From: Flavobacterium nitrogenifigens
GTDB lineage: Bacteria > Bacteroidota > Bacteroidia > Flavobacteriales > Flavobacteriaceae
NCBI RefSeq assembly: GCF_003254565.1
Contig: NZ_QJRI01000182.1
Coordinates: forward strand, 372,001 to 436,000
Direction: 5' to 3'
Length of the DNA: 64,000 nt
The position numbers and the translations under genes are program-made. Numbering within the stretch: the stretch's first letter is position 1; each line of letters starts with the position of its first letter. Positions 54,019-62,748 of the stretch are shown in pieces. The notes under the pieces are model-generated. The model was not told the DNA's origin. It did no database searches and saw only the letters and a program-made list of their open reading frames with translations.

Positions 54019-54813
54019 ATGATGAAGATTCATGCAATTTCGGAAAAAGAACTTGTCGCCATTATATTATACATTTCTCTTTTTTTTATAGTGGTTGCCG
54101 TAGTGTTAATCGTTTTCTTTTATTTCTCCAGAAAAAAAATAATTCAACAAGAGCTCGAAAAATTAGATTTAATATTACAATATCAAAAAGAGCAGCTTCA
54201 TGCCATAATTTTTACGCAGGAAGAGGAACGTAAGAGAATTGCGCAAGATTTACACGATGATATCAGTTCAAAATTAAATATAGTATCACTGAACACGCAT
54301 CTGCTTACAGCTCCTAATCTTACTGAAGCAGAAACTGCAGAAATTACAGAAAATATAATCGCTTTGACAACAAAGGCATTAGATAATTCTAGAAAAATTG
54401 CGCACAATTTGTTGCCACCAGTTTTTGAAAAATTTGGTTTAAATGCTGGTATCGAAGAATTATGTGAAGAATTTGAAAGTAGCAAATCGGTCAAAACGCA
54501 TTATAAAAATGAGATCGATTTTGACGAGAAAGATATAGACAGGCATTTGCATGTGTTTAGAATTTTGCAAGAACTTATGAATAATTCTATTCGCCACGGA
54601 AAAGCATCGCAAATATGGATTTCTTTTGCAAATAATGAAGGAATTAACACTTGTTATTATGAAGATAACGGGGTTGGCTTTGATAGTTCAAATGCCGAAA
54701 ATCAAAAAGGCTTGGGAATGAAGAATATTGATAGCCGTATATCATTTTTGGAAGGAACAATAGAAATTAACTCTGAAATTAATAAAGGTATTGTTGTAAA
54801 TTTTACTTTTTAG
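54019..54813 (+). CDS. Sensor histidine kinase, NarX/HisKA_3 type
   Basis: A 264-residue kinase with one N-terminal membrane helix (about 13-37) and no large sensor domain. The dimerisation/phosphoacceptor motif is ERKRIAQDLHDDISSKLNIV (His of LHDD). The ATPase domain has NNSIRHGKA (N box), YEDNGVGFD (G1) and GLGMKNIDSRI (G2). Start could be 54019 or 54022 (ATGATG). The LuxR-type response regulator gene lies 115 nt downstream. Confidence 0.93.
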   Translation: MMKIHAISEKELVAIILYISLFFIVVAVVLIVFFYFSRKKIIQQELEKLDLILQYQKEQLHAIIFTQEEERKRIAQDLHDDISSKLNIVSLNTHLLTAPNLTEAETAEITENIIALTTKALDNSRKIAHNLLPPVFEKFGLNAGIEELCEEFESSKSVKTHYKNEIDFDEKDIDRHLHVFRILQELMNNSIRHGKASQIWISFANNEGINTCYYEDNGVGFDSSNAENQKGLGMKNIDSRISFLEGTIEINSEINKGIVVNFTF

Positions 54814-54928: not shown

Positions 54929-55594
54929 ATGAATGCTGCTATAAAAATTGCCCTAGTAGACGACGAGATTTTGTTTCGAAAAGGAATTTCTTTTTTATTA
55001 CAGAGAGAAGAAAACATTGATGTTATTTTTGAAGCTTCAAATGGCGATGAACTTATTTCGGAATTAAATGAAAGCGAAATAAAGCCGGATATAATAATAA
55101 TGGACTTGAAGATGCCGGTCTTAAACGGAGTTGAAGCCACCAAAATTATTAAAAAACTCTTTCCCGATATTAAGATTATTGCATTGACCAGTTATGACAC
55201 CAAATCTTTCATTGCAAATATGATTCAAGTTGGTGCAGTAGCGTACTTAATAAAAAATACTACTCCAAAGGATCTAATTCATACCATTAACGAAGTAGCA
55301 AAAAAAGGTTTCTATTACAACGAAAATGTTTTAAAAACTATTCAAGAAACCATAGTTTCTCCTAAAAATGCAAGAGGAGGGTTAGAAACTAATTTTCTTT
55401 CTCCACGCGAAATCGAAATTCTACAGTTAATTTGCCAGCAGAAAACTACCGCAGAAATTGCAGAACATCTTTTTTTGAGCCCTCGAACTATAGAAGGGCA
55501 CAGAAATAATTTATTGCTTAAAACAGAATCGCGTAATATTGCTGGGTTGGTTGTTTATGCTATACAGAATGAATTGGCGGTTTTAACAATTTAA
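54929..55594 (+). CDS. NarL/LuxR family response regulator
   Basis: A 221-residue regulator. The receiver has acidic pocket ALVDDE, phospho-Asp in IIIMDLKMPVLNG (about 57), switch ALTSYD and lysine in YLIKNTTPKD. The C-terminal HTH is LSPREIEILQLICQQKTTAE followed by LFLSPRTIEGHRNNLLLK. It pairs with the preceding kinase. Confidence 0.95.
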   Translation: MNAAIKIALVDDEILFRKGISFLLQREENIDVIFEASNGDELISELNESEIKPDIIIMDLKMPVLNGVEATKIIKKLFPDIKIIALTSYDTKSFIANMIQVGAVAYLIKNTTPKDLIHTINEVAKKGFYYNENVLKTIQETIVSPKNARGGLETNFLSPREIEILQLICQQKTTAEIAEHLFLSPRTIEGHRNNLLLKTESRNIAGLVVYAIQNELAVLTI

Positions 55595-58075: not shown

Positions 58076-58243
58076 TTAATGTTTTTTGTATCGATTTTTC
58101 AGGGCAGTCCCAATAATTATAATTTGCAATACTAATAATGCTGGAATAAATATTAATTTCCAATCAACTTCTAGCCAGCCAGTTTTTTCGGAAACAAAAG
58201 CAAAACTAATTGATAAAAAAAGGCACAGAAACATTGTTTTCAT
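58076..58243 (-). CDS. Small two-helix membrane protein
   Basis: A 55-residue protein (from ATG 58243) with two hydrophobic segments (FLCLFLSISFAFV and LIFIPALLVLQIIIIGTAL) and a basic end (KNRYKKH). A start at 58309 would add 22 polar residues. No family recognised. Confidence 0.5.
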   Translation of the reverse strand: MKTMFLCLFLSISFAFVSEKTGWLEVDWKLIFIPALLVLQIIIIGTALKNRYKKH

Positions 58244-58387
58244 AATGATTTTATTTTGTGTAGTATTAATTTTGGAGAATATAATACTCGCTTTACTTTT
58301 CGGTTTCATGGTCGCTTAATAGATTATCACAAATTTAATGGTATCAAAAGTGTAATCCTTACGGAAACCCGTAAAGCGCTATAAAAA

Positions 58388-59056
58388 TTACACCAATCCG
58401 AAATCTTTTGCGATTGCAATCAAATGCACATTGTTGTTGGCTTTAAAGTAGATTTTCAGTTTGTTTATTCTTTTTTCAATACTGCTTGTTCCGTTAGGTG
58501 TTATAGATAAATCTTTAAATTCTTTAGAAATACTTTCTAAAATATATCCTTGCGATAAAAGCTTTAAAATAGAAATGTCATAAGATTCAATTTCAATTAG
58601 AGCCTTGTCAGTAAAATTAAAAGACAAATCAGAAGACAGTATTTTTTCTTCATTATTATATGTACTTTTAATAGCATTTCTTAACTCAGCAATACTATTT
58701 CTACCTTTAGAAACATATGCATTAATACCTAATTCGTTAAAAAGAGTTTTAATTCTATAACTTTTATCTTCTATCGAAAAAACAATCTTTTTTAAATTTG
58801 GCTGTACTTTGTTTGCAGCTTCTATAAGTTCGTCTCCACTATTTAAATTTACTTTTCTATGATCTGATTTAAATGATAAATCTGTAATCAACAAATCATA
58901 AGGTTCTTTGTCAGCCAATGCTTTTTTTATTTTAAGCAGACCTTCGTCACAATATTTCACATGATGAATTACTGAAACTTGTAACTCTTCAAGTACTTGA
59001 ACAACTGCAATGCTGATACTATCTAAATCTTCGGCAACTAAAACTTTTTTAAACAT
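58388..59056 (-). CDS. Response regulator with receiver and HTH domain
   Basis: A 222-residue regulator. Receiver: VLVAEDLDS acidic pair, phospho-Asp in DLLITDLSF, lysine in YVSKGRN. The C-terminal part (SYDISILKLLSQGYILESIS, TSSIEKRINKLKIYFKANNN) is a LuxR-like HTH with an extended loop before the recognition helix. It lies 8 nt after the TPR pseudokinase gene and is probably the output of the kinase pair. Confidence 0.88.
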   Translation of the reverse strand: MFKKVLVAEDLDSISIAVVQVLEELQVSVIHHVKYCDEGLLKIKKALADKEPYDLLITDLSFKSDHRKVNLNSGDELIEAANKVQPNLKKIVFSIEDKSYRIKTLFNELGINAYVSKGRNSIAELRNAIKSTYNNEEKILSSDLSFNFTDKALIEIESYDISILKLLSQGYILESISKEFKDLSITPNGTSSIEKRINKLKIYFKANNNVHLIAIAKDFGLV

Positions 59057-59064
59057 ATACTGGG

Positions 59065-60852
59065 TTATATAGGGAATTTGAAACTTATTTTAAAACCACT
59101 TTCTGAATTTGTATCAAAATTAAAGGTTCCTTTTATTGTTTCAATACGGTTTTCCACATTTTGTAGTCTTTTTTCTAAAATAGCATGCTCTTCGTTAACT
59201 TTTGTGCCATTATCTGTGTAGGTTATAAAGATATTTTTCTCATTTTTTTTAAACGTTATACTTGCTAGAGAAGGATTGTTTAATGTTTTCATTTGGTCAA
59301 GAATTTCCTGGAGAACTCTAAAAACTGTAATTTTTTTTGCCCGATTTATTTTATACCACGAAAAAGTATTTAAGCCATTTATTATGATATTTAGATTAGA
59401 TGTTGTGTAGCTGGAAATCATTTCTTTTAAGTTCTTACCATAATTATGATCTGTATGAATAATGCTATTTTCTCGTGAAATGTTTCTTGTTTTGGAATAA
59501 ATATCATTTAAGTTAGAAAGGAATTTTTCTTTGTTTCCTAAATCTTCCAATTCATTACTTTTTGTAAATTCCAGTATTTGATGAATATCTTTCGTTAATT
59601 CATTCTGAAGCTTATCCGAAATGCGCATTTCACTTTTAAAAACAGCATCATTCTTTTCTTTTTTTGCTTTATGGGTAATATAAAGAGTAAGAAAAATTAA
59701 AACGAAAGCACTAATAGATATTACGACATACAAAATATAACTCCTGTTTTTTTGTCTTTGAAATTGTAATTCATTTTCTGCTTTTTGATTTTTGAGTTCT
59801 AAATTTTCTTCTTTATCCTTCTTTGAGTTATATATAATGTCGGCAAATTGATTTTTTGCTTTTTTCCTGCTTATAGTAAGACTATCTACCATTCTAAAGT
59901 AAATACGAGAATGTTTTTTTGAATTTTCAGCATCATCAGCTTCTATTAAAGCAGCTAGCATATTAATTTCATTTGTTGTAGATCTTGCTTTTTTCGCGCA
60001 GATATAAGCCTTCTCAGCATTAATTTTTTTCAATATGGGATTATTGTATTTTTTATAATATTGATAAAAAGCATAATAGTTGCCAATTAGTTCGTATTCA
60101 TTATTTAAGGTTAGACCTATTTCCAAACTTTCGTTAAAACAGTCCAATGCCTCTTTTTTATGATTTCCAAGATAAAAGTAAGAAAGTCCCAAATTATATA
60201 ATTTGCTGCTGCGCAGAATATCTGTATTTGAAGGGGTGATTTTGTCTTCAATTTTTAGCCTAGCTATGGGTTCTAATAAATCTACAGCTTCTTGGTATTT
60301 TCCTTGTTGCATGTAGATAAACGCAATTTCCGATATTATTCTTGATTTTCTGAATGTAGAGACTGCATTTTTTAATGCTTTTTTATGATAAAATAATGCT
60401 TTTTCATTGTTGTAAGTGTAGTAATAGTTAAAAGCCATAAACGTGTAAGCATTAGTGGCATGCTTTTTATTAGATGTTTTTTCTAGATAAGGAAATGCTT
60501 TTATAAGCTTAACTTCTGCTTCGTAATAATCACCATATCTTTGTAAAATTTCTACCATATAGTTTAATGAACCCACGTATTCATCTGCATAATCTTCTTT
60601 TGGCTCGCATAATAATTGTGTTTTATTGAAGTAAAGAAAAGCACTGTCATATTTTCCTGAATCAAAAAAAGTAAGTGCTTTTTCCATCGTTTGCTTTATT
60701 TCAGCTGAGCGATCGCGTTTACTATGATGTAAATCTAAATTTTTTGCCTGAGAAAACTGTATAGCATAAAGGGACGCCAAAATTGTAATGAAGATTAGCA
60801 AGTAAAAAACAATATGTCTTTTCTGAAAAATGAAAAACGAGTTCTTAGGCAT
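59065..60852 (-). CDS. TPR membrane protein with degenerate histidine kinase domain
   Basis: A 595-residue protein: N-terminal hydrophobic segment (12-32), about seven TPR-like units (to ~330), a coiled segment, one membrane helix (around 370-392) and a HisKA_3-plus-ATPase-shaped C terminus. Key residues are lost: the phosphoacceptor block reads RISDKLQNELTKDIHQ (Gln416 instead of His), the G1 box reads DNGTKVN, the G2 box RLQNVENRI, and the N-box Asn is Asp. It starts on the stop of the intact paralogue (TAATG). Probably a pseudokinase partner. Confidence 0.88.
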   Translation of the reverse strand: MPKNSFFIFQKRHIVFYLLIFITILASLYAIQFSQAKNLDLHHSKRDRSAEIKQTMEKALTFFDSGKYDSAFLYFNKTQLLCEPKEDYADEYVGSLNYMVEILQRYGDYYEAEVKLIKAFPYLEKTSNKKHATNAYTFMAFNYYYTYNNEKALFYHKKALKNAVSTFRKSRIISEIAFIYMQQGKYQEAVDLLEPIARLKIEDKITPSNTDILRSSKLYNLGLSYFYLGNHKKEALDCFNESLEIGLTLNNEYELIGNYYAFYQYYKKYNNPILKKINAEKAYICAKKARSTTNEINMLAALIEADDAENSKKHSRIYFRMVDSLTISRKKAKNQFADIIYNSKKDKEENLELKNQKAENELQFQRQKNRSYILYVVISISAFVLIFLTLYITHKAKKEKNDAVFKSEMRISDKLQNELTKDIHQILEFTKSNELEDLGNKEKFLSNLNDIYSKTRNISRENSIIHTDHNYGKNLKEMISSYTTSNLNIIINGLNTFSWYKINRAKKITVFRVLQEILDQMKTLNNPSLASITFKKNEKNIFITYTDNGTKVNEEHAILEKRLQNVENRIETIKGTFNFDTNSESGFKISFKFPI

Positions 60853-62579
60853 TATGAAGGAAATTTTATTAAAACCTTAAAACCTTTTCCTGAATCTGAA
60901 TGAATTTCTAGTTCACCTTTAATGTCGTGAATTCGATTCTCAATATTATGCAAACCATTTTTTAAAACCATTTTATTTGTATCAATGCCTTTTCCGTTAT
61001 CAGTATAATTAATCATTACAACATTGTTATGTTCCTTAAAAGTAATTGCAACTAAGGTTGCGTTACTATGTTTTTTCATATTCACAAGTAATTCCTGAAT
61101 CGAACGGTAAACTGCTGTTTTTTTAGTTTTATCAATTTTGTCCCAAGAGATAGTATCAAGACCATTTATCAAAAGATTTATGCTAGAAACATTAAATCCG
61201 GAAATCATTTCTTTGAGAGAAGCTTTATAATTTTGACAGTCTAAAAACGGAGTGTTGTCCTTCGAAATATTTCTACATCGGGAATAAATATCGTCCAATT
61301 TTTGCATTAATTGACTTTTGTTTTCTTCAGAAGTAAGGTTTCTGCTTTCTACAAATGCCATTGAGTGGTAAATATCATTAGCTAGTTCATCATGTAATTT
61401 TTTCGAAATTCTAGTTTCACTCTGATAAGTTGCTTCAATTTTTTGCTGATTAGCCCTTACTGTGAGGAAAAAATATAGAAAGACAATTAGACTTAAAGCC
61501 AATATGATTATGACATAGGAAGCAATATTCTTACTTTCTTGTTTAGCTAGTCGAAGTTCATTTTTAATTTTTTGAGCCTTTAATTTTAAATTTTCATCCT
61601 TTTCTTTCTTAGAATCGTATTTAATTTTTGCAAATTGATTTTTAGCTTTTTGTCTAGCTACAAAAATACTATCATTCAATTTTATATAAATAAGAGTATT
61701 TTTTTTTGACTCAATATTTGAACTGTTTTCAGCTATGAATTTTAAGGCAAGTAAACGATCGTCAGTATTGTTAGATAGTGTATAGTTTTCGTAGCTTAAT
61801 TTCGCATATTTCATCACTAGATTAGGATCTTTTTTGTTGTGATAGTATTCCGCTAGATTGTAGTATGTTCTTCCTAAACCATCATTATAATTGACTTGAC
61901 GTTTTAATTTTATACTACTTTCAAAATATGATAATGCTTTTGGGTCTTTGAGTTTATAATAGCAATAACCTATATAGTCTAGTGTTTTAGAATAATTTTC
62001 AGGATTTTCTTTAACTATTTTCTCTTTACTAATAGAAAGAAAAATAGGAAGCGCTTTATCGAACTTTTGTTGTTTTATGTAGATAACAGCTATATTATTT
62101 TTTGCTTCAAGTTTGTTTATCCTATCAGTGCTTAAAATAAACGCTTTGGAATAATAGTAAATAGCAGTTGGATAGTCATACGTGAAATAATAATTTCTTC
62201 CTAAAACACTATAGATGTTCCATACATAATTAGAATTTTTTATTTGGCTTAAAAACGGAAATGTTTCGTTTGCTGTTTTTATACTTCCTTGAAAATCTCC
62301 CTGTGCTTGTTGAATTTCTGCCATGTAATACATGCAGTAAATATAATGTTTAGCATCTTCTTTAGGTTCACAATAGGTTCGTGCTTTATTATAATAAAAA
62401 AAGGCACTATCTGTATTCTTGTAGCTATTATAAAATTTGTCGGCTTTGCTAATTAATTTAAGGATTTCTGTATCATTTTTTGCTTTTTTAGAACTGTCAA
62501 TGTTTTCTTTTTGGCAAGAAAAAAACGCGAGTAAAAGAGCTGCTAAAAAGGTAAATATTTGTATTCTTTTTGGTATCAT
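60852..62579 (-). CDS. TPR-containing sensor histidine kinase, lipoprotein-like
   Basis: A 575-residue kinase. The N terminus looks like a lipoprotein signal (LLLAFFSCQKE, Cys22), then about seven TPR units, a charged coiled segment, one membrane helix (around 352-374) and an intact HisKA_3 motif RISKKLHDELANDIYHS (His396). The ATPase domain keeps DNGKGID (G1) and GLHNIENRI (G2). ATG 62579 is chosen because it gives the signal sequence. It is first in the operon with the pseudokinase and response regulator. Confidence 0.9.
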   Translation of the reverse strand: MIPKRIQIFTFLAALLLAFFSCQKENIDSSKKAKNDTEILKLISKADKFYNSYKNTDSAFFYYNKARTYCEPKEDAKHYIYCMYYMAEIQQAQGDFQGSIKTANETFPFLSQIKNSNYVWNIYSVLGRNYYFTYDYPTAIYYYSKAFILSTDRINKLEAKNNIAVIYIKQQKFDKALPIFLSISKEKIVKENPENYSKTLDYIGYCYYKLKDPKALSYFESSIKLKRQVNYNDGLGRTYYNLAEYYHNKKDPNLVMKYAKLSYENYTLSNNTDDRLLALKFIAENSSNIESKKNTLIYIKLNDSIFVARQKAKNQFAKIKYDSKKEKDENLKLKAQKIKNELRLAKQESKNIASYVIIILALSLIVFLYFFLTVRANQQKIEATYQSETRISKKLHDELANDIYHSMAFVESRNLTSEENKSQLMQKLDDIYSRCRNISKDNTPFLDCQNYKASLKEMISGFNVSSINLLINGLDTISWDKIDKTKKTAVYRSIQELLVNMKKHSNATLVAITFKEHNNVVMINYTDNGKGIDTNKMVLKNGLHNIENRIHDIKGELEIHSDSGKGFKVLIKFPS

Positions 62580-62748
62580 GCGCCAAAAATAAAAAATATG
62601 AATTCTTATGAAAGAGTACAAATACCTGTTTTTGCAAAAAGTATGTTTTTTTTATTTTCTAGTATTCATTTACAATGATATACAAACAAACCCTCAGTTA
62701 GAGGGTTGTTAAAATTTTAGAATGTTGTAAAATTTATCTTTATAAAAC

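Follow-up and report, generated by a model that had tools for sequence, protein, structure and literature searches.

An intact TPR histidine kinase, a TPR pseudokinase under selection and a response regulator with its promoter element inside the pseudokinase gene in Flavobacterium

Introduction

Why would a bacterium keep, at full length, a sensor kinase gene whose product has lost its catalytic residues? The question is raised by a three-gene operon in a stretch of 64,000 nucleotides (nt) from Flavobacterium nitrogenifigens (contig NZ_QJRI01000182.1, positions 372,001 to 436,000; the whole stretch is called the window here), in which two genes for tetratricopeptide repeat (TPR) kinase-like proteins, K1 and K2, precede a single response regulator gene (RR). 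A preliminary description, made from the letters of the window, had read K1 as an active histidine kinase and K2 as a selected pseudokinase that might pair with K1 or tune it. Our analysis places K2 under purifying selection and finds a promoter element for RR, locked in position and with fixed spacing, in the 3′ end of the K2 gene. The embedded promoter is new and goes beyond what that description had seen. K2 itself most likely serves as a TPR co-receptor of K1.

Operon structure and catalytic residues

All three genes lie on the minus strand in the order K1-K2-RR, and all are open and full length. K1 (60852..62579, 575 amino acids (aa)) is an active-type TPR sensor histidine kinase, K2 (59065..60852, 595 aa) is a TPR pseudokinase and RR (58388..59056, 222 aa) is a response regulator with a receiver and a small C-terminal domain. 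The stop codon of K1 and the start codon of K2 share one base in TAATG, the gene fusion that had been pointed out before, and the gene set as first described (an intact K1, a lesioned K2 at full length without frameshift, one RR in the same operon) is borne out. The RR protein matches Pfam Response_reg (3.7e-5) and DUF5932 (5.6e-4), both under the cut-off, and gives no match at E ≤ 1 to the GerE-type HTH output domain of LuxR/NarL-type regulators.

K1 runs from a signal peptide and a lipobox cysteine (Cys22) through a TPR array, a long coiled coil and a transmembrane (TM) segment to a DHp domain with His396 and a CA domain; the TM segments and the lipobox were assigned by visual inspection and with the help of predicted helices. 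In alignment A2, which joins K1 to 21 of the 41 other first-position kinases available and to 21 single-type kinases, His396 is an invariant column. K1 has the DesK-type (HisKA_3) residues, namely the His followed by an acidic residue, the N-box, G1 and G2, so the alignment upholds the claim that it retains its phosphoacceptor and ATP motifs. K2 begins with a hydrophobic N-terminal segment without a lipobox, followed by a TPR array, a coiled coil, a TM segment, a DHp-like part and a degenerate CA domain. By alignment, its Gln416 (codon 59605..59607, minus strand, computed from the open reading frame (ORF)) occupies the column of the K1 phosphoacceptor His396, and the N-box Asn is replaced by Gln, confirming both of these losses. 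The loss of the G1 and G2 boxes that had also been claimed is partial: the second G1 Gly has become Lys and the G2 Gly has become Arg, but the G1 Asp-Asn, the first G1 Gly and the last Gly of the third box are retained. The Asp and Asn of the HisKA_3 phosphatase motif are replaced in K2 by N and K, and K2 lacks the DesK-type residue set found in K1.

The AlphaFold models have a mean predicted local distance difference test score (pLDDT) of 84.3 for K1 and 82.0 for K2, and most of the CA secondary structure is kept in the latter. K1 matches DesK, LGN-TPR and Rap-Phr structures and K2 matches the same kinds, DesK and TPR structures; in these predicted structures the DHp-CA fold is DesK-like for both (Foldseek probability 1.00). 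Pfam models find TPR in both proteins and HATPase_c in K1 alone, at the cut-off; HATPase_c is matched in 42 of 43 members of alignment A2 and in 35 of 59 members of alignment A1. Pfam HisKA_3 is matched by neither K1 nor K2 at E ≤ 1 and by no member of either alignment at 1e-3. The ‘HisKA_3’ label first given to the two proteins therefore holds for the predicted fold and not for Pfam: the domain is HisKA_3-like by modelled fold only.

The lipoprotein-like start of K1, which had been put forward as a topological puzzle, is real, with Cys22 invariant in 43/43 rows of alignment A2. It is not peculiar to K1, being common to first-position and single-type kinases. A strict lipobox pattern matches in just 32/42 first and 9/21 single-type kinases; by eye this pattern is too narrow and some starts lie too far upstream, so the invariant Cys column is the better guide, but it covers a subset of rows.

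Kinase classes across Flavobacterium

A search of 299 genomes of the genus with K2 as query gave relatives in 175 at 1e-30, and 60 neighbourhoods were hand-picked from them (not at random; two are from the window's own genome). These contain 118 kinases of at least 340 aa, 117 of which were placed in a tree after the truncated row L095_2of2 was dropped. In 39 of the loci two or three kinases precede RR, with three in 14. On the tree, rooted at its midpoint only, first-position kinases form one clade (42 rows; Shimodaira–Hasegawa-like approximate likelihood ratio test (SH-aLRT) 99), later copies form another (54 rows, 100) and the remaining, single-type kinases form a third (21 rows, 99); these come from 17 loci, four of them with two kinases. 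We defined the catalytic core as the His, the N-box Asn, the G1 Asp, the first G1 Gly, a Gly or Ala at the second G1 position and the G2 Gly. The whole core is present in 42/42 first and 21/21 single-type kinases, and in 14/54 later copies (3/14 middle copies, 10/38 last copies and 1/2 in the contig-cut locus L060).

The lesions of the later copies are varied. The His site has changed at least 16 times on the tree, to Q, E, D, N, R, S or K. His and ATP site are both kept in 14 of the 54 later copies and both lost in another 14, K2 among the latter, while His without ATP site and ATP site without His are each seen in 13. Complementary lesions, with His kept where the ATP site is lost, were considered and rejected, as the two losses are independent (Fisher p = 1, 54 later copies). 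Such varied and independent lesions fit a relaxed catalysis with a retained sensor, but they also fit slow decay.

In the clade of K2 itself (14 members including K2), all proteins are full length, none has the whole core, and the His is absent in eight and kept in six. The expectation that the second kinase consistently lacks both His and G boxes thus stands as regards an incomplete core (14/14), but not as regards the His. Since 6/14 keep it, it is not His loss but the loss of some part of catalysis that is the conserved trait. Orthologues with the His and signs of gene decay had both been named beforehand as findings that would speak against a selected pseudokinase. The former exist, but all six have lost ATP-site residues; the latter appear in some loci, where later copies are decayed or gone. 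The middle copy of locus L054 is broken at its C-terminus, in L057 a third copy survives as a 103-aa remnant, and in L075, L076 and L094 the first-type kinase alone remains.

A second sample, made of the 80 best RR-relative loci (75–96% identical, with 4.5 kb upstream), gave the same division; its species partly overlap those of the first sample and are Flavobacterium save two labelled Flavobacteriaceae bacterium and one [Flexibacter] sp. Here the core is intact in 53/53 first copies and 19/89 later copies, and the His is present in 44/89 later copies. The RR-adjacent gene is first-type in six loci, and one locus cut by a contig end is without kinase. In F. johnsoniae strain CI04 (L310), the first kinase is intact and the second has the His without the ATP-site residues.

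Consecutive kinase genes are closely packed. Among 52 junctions we counted 16 overlaps of 1 nt, four of 4 nt and three longer ones, 21 gaps of 0–12 nt and eight wider separations. Hence 44 of 52 later copies overlap the preceding copy or start within 12 nt of it, an arrangement fit for coupled supply.

Selection on K2

Ratios of nonsynonymous to synonymous substitution rates (dN/dS) were obtained by a simple counting method for 55 pairs among 11 species, using two-kinase loci of K2's clade (the three-kinase loci L040 and L041 and the divergent L049 were left out) and K2 residues 36–560, a range that excludes the embedded element described below. The median dN/dS is 0.156 for K2 and 0.136 for K1, and in the closest pair (L047, L048) the values are 0.122 and 0.117, respectively. 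K2 is under purifying selection. The ratio of mean dN in K2 to that in K1 is 0.96 for the TPR part, 1.79 for coil and TM, 1.96 for DHp and 2.04 for CA, a pattern indicating that the sensor half of K2 is nearly as constrained as that of K1, with a catalytic half that is relaxed, not free. Median dN/dS for K2 and K1 is 0.131 versus 0.125 in coil and TM and 0.136 versus 0.121 in DHp. K2 thus has the sequence and modelled-fold features expected of a pseudo-histidine kinase, with catalytic residues gone, the predicted fold kept and the protein maintained by selection as judged by this simple method. A selected non-catalytic partner, as first proposed, is supported by the 14/14 full-length members, the 0/14 whole cores and the dN/dS of K2.

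An RR promoter element inside the last kinase gene

Among 37 last copies, codon identity at positions with the same amino acid reaches 0.86–0.91 over codons 557–584, compared with a mean of 0.557 in the gene body (sd 0.059, highest window 0.718). The 3′ ends of first copies (38) and of middle copies (13) lack this synonymous peak. In first copies, codons 1–20, which lie beside their own promoter, are likewise under high synonymous constraint (0.91), and this is separate from the 3′ peak. The extra conservation of the last 40 codons of the last kinase is explained by an operator-like imperfect palindrome, TGTGGAAAACCGTA, followed by TAnnTTTG, the −7 element of Bacteroidetes (PMC6847099, PMC9723704). 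In the window this composite, named P2, has its palindrome at 59145..59158 (minus strand) within the 3′ end of K2 and its −7 box, TAATTTTG, at 59115..59122 (minus strand; numbering from PMC6847099), with TAnnTTTG exactly 36 nt from the first base of the palindrome. The −7 box marks a putative start of RR mRNA inside K2, predicted to lie about 54 nt upstream of the RR start codon. If the T of the box is numbered −12, as in PMC6847099, the centre of the palindrome falls at −41.5.

The palindrome is present at most 160 nt upstream of RR in 57 of 58 genus loci with a clear RR, always with TAnnTTTG at 36 nt, and motif and spacing recur in 77 of the 80 named loci, where one of those missed (L324) has just 34 nt of upstream sequence. 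Its place relative to the kinases is fixed: the motif lies in the 3′ end of 0/40 first, 0/14 middle, 39/40 last and 10/14 single kinases (a count that omits L060, L078, L087, L092, L093 and L095). In the single-kinase misses L075, L076 and L094 and the last-copy miss L057 it still stands upstream of RR, whereas L090 has none. In the first three, where the second kinase is gone, the element is noncoding DNA; it evidently outlives the kinase gene. Middle copies come closest to last copies in the TPR part (11/13) and to first copies in the tail (9/13). Bodies and tails have thus parted, and the element seems to stay put while kinase bodies duplicate in front of it. In 20 loci from the wider family, described below, a ATACGGAAAACCGTAT-like sequence or GTGGAAAACCGTA occurs at −90 to −109 from RR in nine.

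K1 has a −7 box of its own, TATTTTTG (62584..62591, minus strand), directly 5′ of its start codon, as is seen in the tandem-type loci inspected. The box ends four bases before the ATG, so that the predicted mRNA would start on the A of the start codon and be leaderless; leaderless mRNAs are uncommon in flavobacteria, at 5.5% in F. psychrophilum (PMC9723704). In 31 of 32 draft loci (contigs of L037–L077), the contig breaks off 3–8 kb from the K1 start, as though a long repeat, for instance an rRNA operon, lay beside it.

Possible roles of K2

On balance we favour, at somewhat better than even chances, a three-protein unit with K1 as sole enzyme, K2 as non-catalytic co-receptor and RR as autoregulating activator. 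K1 would sense through its lipid-anchored, probably periplasmic TPR array and phosphorylate RR. K2, probably descended from an old duplicate of the same kind of kinase with catalysis lost, would act as a second TPR receptor that pairs with K1 or sits in the same membrane complex, and would set the balance of K1 between kinase and phosphatase activity. Phosphorylated RR would then activate promoters through TxxGGnnnnCCGTA at about −41.5, the place of a class II activator, its targets being its own promoter in the K2 3′ end and that of a small membrane protein gene downstream. We infer the phosphotransfer, the pairing, the direction of K2's effect and RR binding to the element; for the pairing, the shared ancestry of the two kinases, their close gene coupling, the retained predicted DHp-CA fold and precedent in other bacteria all argue.

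Several points weigh against this account. By dN/dS, the TPR part of K2 is somewhat less constrained than that of K1 (0.172 versus 0.139), as is its CA domain (0.189 versus 0.123); these values come from simple counting on kinase copies that recombine, and saturation affects dS in some of the pairs (for K2, depending on the domain, it is finite in 28 to 54 of 55). K2 is dispensable in some lineages, in which K1, RR and the promoter persist after loss of the second kinase. Slow decay would also give such a random mixture of lesions. The link between RR and the palindrome is one of co-occurrence and position only.

The main competing explanation, which we consider unlikely, takes K2 for a slowly dying duplicate in which selection keeps the RR promoter in the 3′ end and the rest is carried along. 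Lesions that are so many, varied and independent would be expected of such a gene, as would the truncation or loss of later copies in some loci and a K2 dN/dS slightly above that of K1 in every domain compared. Yet the dN/dS of 0.156 was obtained over residues 36–560, with the element outside, the dN of the TPR half equals that of K1, and 14/14 members of K2's clade remain open. Moreover, the promoter persists without the gene in L075, L076 and L094, and so the gene is not needed to keep it.

Somewhat less probable still is K2 as a negative partner that binds RR or K1 and damps the output, by sequestration or in a phosphatase-type manner, in the style of RetS acting on GacS. The predicted DHp-CA fold is kept, the K2 gene adjoins RR, and RetS inhibits GacS in heterodimers, as cited in PMC12675982. 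An enzymatic phosphatase role, on the other hand, is unlikely, since K2 lacks the phosphatase-motif Asp and Asn, and just 19 of 54 later copies have retained the pair; the damping may still come about by simple sequestration. That K2 is half of an enzyme, its heterodimer using the ATP site of one partner and the histidine of the other as proposed for FasB/FasC, would suit the 13/54 later copies with His only and the 13/54 with ATP site only, but it is very unlikely for the K2 of this window, which belongs to the 14/54 that have lost both, in a set where the losses are independent (Fisher p = 1).

Predicted regulon

A second composite, P3, follows RR, with an operator-like palindrome TACGGGTTTCCGTA (58360..58373, minus strand) between RR and a small gene, better than that of P2 and again 36 nt from TAnnTTTG (−7 box TAAATTTG, 58330..58337, minus strand). 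The small gene (58076..58309, minus strand) encodes 77 aa with two hydrophobic stretches, of membrane-protein type, and has no Pfam family above cut-off. A P3-like composite follows RR in 49/58 loci, and the string IPALLVLQIIII of the small gene occurs after RR in 42/42 tandem-type loci versus 0/16 other genus loci.

In the window's own genome, GGnnnnCCGTA-N22-TAnnTTTG occurs exactly 12 times, against none for the reversed control; with up to one mismatch there are 21 matches versus six. The 12 sites comprise P2 and P3 of the window, P2 and P3 of a paralogous kinase-RR locus on contig C172, three before tandem YD-type lipoproteins on C129 and five others, with no ORF near the site on C66. The three YD-type lipoprotein genes lie near one another (G000:C129:150914-154735), each with its own composite promoter of the RR family. 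The enrichment in this genome holds only for the longer palindrome or for the composite with TAnnTTTG: the loose palindrome ACGGnnnnCCGT is not enriched (37 versus 35 in the reversed control), nor is the 19-mer TTACGGnnnnCCGTAAGGA with up to three mismatches (81 on both strands versus 149 in the control). In its exact form, the same 19-mer is present in 46 of 150 genus genomes and the control in none.

Across the 150 genomes there are 516 exact composite sites versus 13 for the control, 490 of them in 79 RR-bearing genomes (333.5 Mb) and 26 in 71 genomes without RR (202.1 Mb). The density is thus 1.47 versus 0.13 per Mb, an 11-fold difference (Mann–Whitney p 8e-24, not to be taken literally as the genomes are related), counting up to two of the RR's own sites per RR copy; in a size-matched subset it is 1.41 versus 0.17 per Mb. 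Among 30 loci of the YD-type lipoprotein, a composite precedes the gene in 11 of the 26 from kinase-bearing genomes and in none of the 4 from other genomes. The 11 genomes all carry a tandem-type locus (in G091 the second kinase is lost), and in three more tandem-type genomes the site is degenerate (G006, G063) or absent (G201).

Predicted targets elsewhere include DRT2, an LmuA-type Cap4 nuclease, PDC-S71, an HsdR_N-type protein and a dynamin-like GTPase. Forty sites in other genomes were picked from among the matches listed; for 10 of the 48 sites considered in all, no ORF of 55 aa began within 420 nt. From 39 target ORFs we obtained a non-redundant set of 29 by dropping seven YD-type lipoprotein paralogues, two other paralogues and one 74-aa ORF. 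PADLOC matches at ≤1e-25 were found for four of the 29 (DRT2, LmuA, PDC-S71 and a Ser/Thr kinase, whose match is generic) versus one of 58 window genes (RmuC); the dynamin-like protein matches LeoA/LeoBC at 1e-8 only. PDC-S71 occurs in 8/299 genomes, with the composite upstream of 2/7 full-length genes, one of which had prompted the test. Given these small numbers and the generic kinase match, the antiphage link stays a lead. A perfect TTACGGnnnnCCGTAA also lies upstream of what we take to be a release factor 1-like gene in two genomes (L165, L174).

The system in the wider family

Taking RR as query, relatives were found in 117 of 299 family genomes (97 of 236 genera), from which 20 loci were taken, not at random (L146 belongs to the window's genus). 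A TPR-kinase relative adjoins RR in 18 of these 20. A small lipoprotein-like gene of about 50–65 aa, with an acidic or proline-rich C-terminus, lies directly upstream of 8/21 single-type kinases in the genus and of 13/19 family-locus kinases, one of them doubtful (the L150 match is no lipoprotein by eye), and of 0/95 kinases in tandem-type loci. The pattern used also fires on controls, in 17/154 cases in tandem-type loci and 0/75 and 6/92 elsewhere (23/321 in total). The window's own genome has two more TPR kinases (L078; G000:C172, 7.6–10.0 kb and 16.2–18.0 kb), each after a small lipoprotein that ends in a proline-rich stretch; one of the two is accompanied by an RR of its own (49% identical) and by the same promoter element, and is followed by an HsdR_N-type gene. 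In eight family loci (L142, L147, L148, L152, L153, L155, L156, L158), the kinase-RR set has upstream of it an opposite-strand gene of about 180–250 aa, and the N-termini of these gene products look alike by eye.

A joint reading of these data, offered tentatively and as a whole doubtful, is that a family-wide signalling system (small lipoprotein, lipid-anchored TPR kinase, RR) became an evolvable receptor array in large-genome Flavobacterium. One enzyme would have been kept, TPR receptors tandem-duplicated and repeatedly stripped of catalysis, and the RR's own −41.5 promoter fixed at the end of the last kinase gene. RR would control a small regulon made up of lipoproteins that are secreted, joined in several genomes by antiphage or conflict genes (DRT2 reverse transcriptase, Lamassu-type Cap4 nuclease, PDC-S71, HsdR_N-type nuclease), and lipoprotein or peptides freed by lysis might serve as an alarm that the TPR receptors read.

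Relation to known systems

In the library searched, we came upon no account of the operon, nor of its operator or regulon. The closest arrangement is FasB/FasC/FasA of group A Streptococcus, where a single operon encodes two tandem sensor kinases together with one response regulator, one kinase is proposed to be a pseudokinase and the two interact by two-hybrid (PMC12675982). FasB and FasC differ in having six putative TM segments, with no TPR named, and FasC keeps its His (H246), whereas K2 has lost both His and ATP-site residues and its pairing with K1 is putative. A dead kinase relative that tunes an active kinase is also known from a ChrS pseudokinase variant of Corynebacterium glutamicum, described together with DivL and RetS, and ChrS and HrrS give a precedent for pseudokinase pairing (PMC9491836). 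Unlike K2, the ChrS pseudokinase arose in laboratory evolution via a frameshift (PMC9491836).

DesK/VraS-type kinases are the closest solved structures to the K1 DHp-CA part (VraS by sequence, DesK and VraS by fold), and K1 is unlike them in its TPR sensor with lipid anchor and in giving no Pfam HisKA_3 match. DivL and RetS have other sensor domains and gene contexts. The TPR half of K1 and K2 matches Rap-Phr* (6t46), a likeness to peptide-sensing Rap/RNPP TPR regulators that is weak because LGN and designed TPRs match better; Pfam RNPP_C is matched by 1/43 first or single-type kinases. Rap/RNPP regulators are cytoplasmic, whereas the K1/K2 TPR array is predicted to lie outside the membrane and is fused to a kinase. 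The NCBIfam model for FimS of Porphyromonas gingivalis matches the TPR-TM part of K1 (residues 6–380, 7e-8) far below its cut-off (31/600 bits) and does not match K2.

The loci form a natural series in which the first kinase is always intact and later ones are disabled in many ways, so that orthologues with His only, ATP site only, both or neither can be compared for the role of a dead sensor kinase. The position-locked embedded promoter could be used as a reporter as it stands, and it yields a predicted regulon for this widespread two-component system. The series also shows how bacteria may recycle dead enzymes as extra receptors. Elsewhere in the window, a second, NarL-like response regulator is encoded 3 kb away (54929-55594, plus strand), with a weak kinase match just before it (54532-54813).

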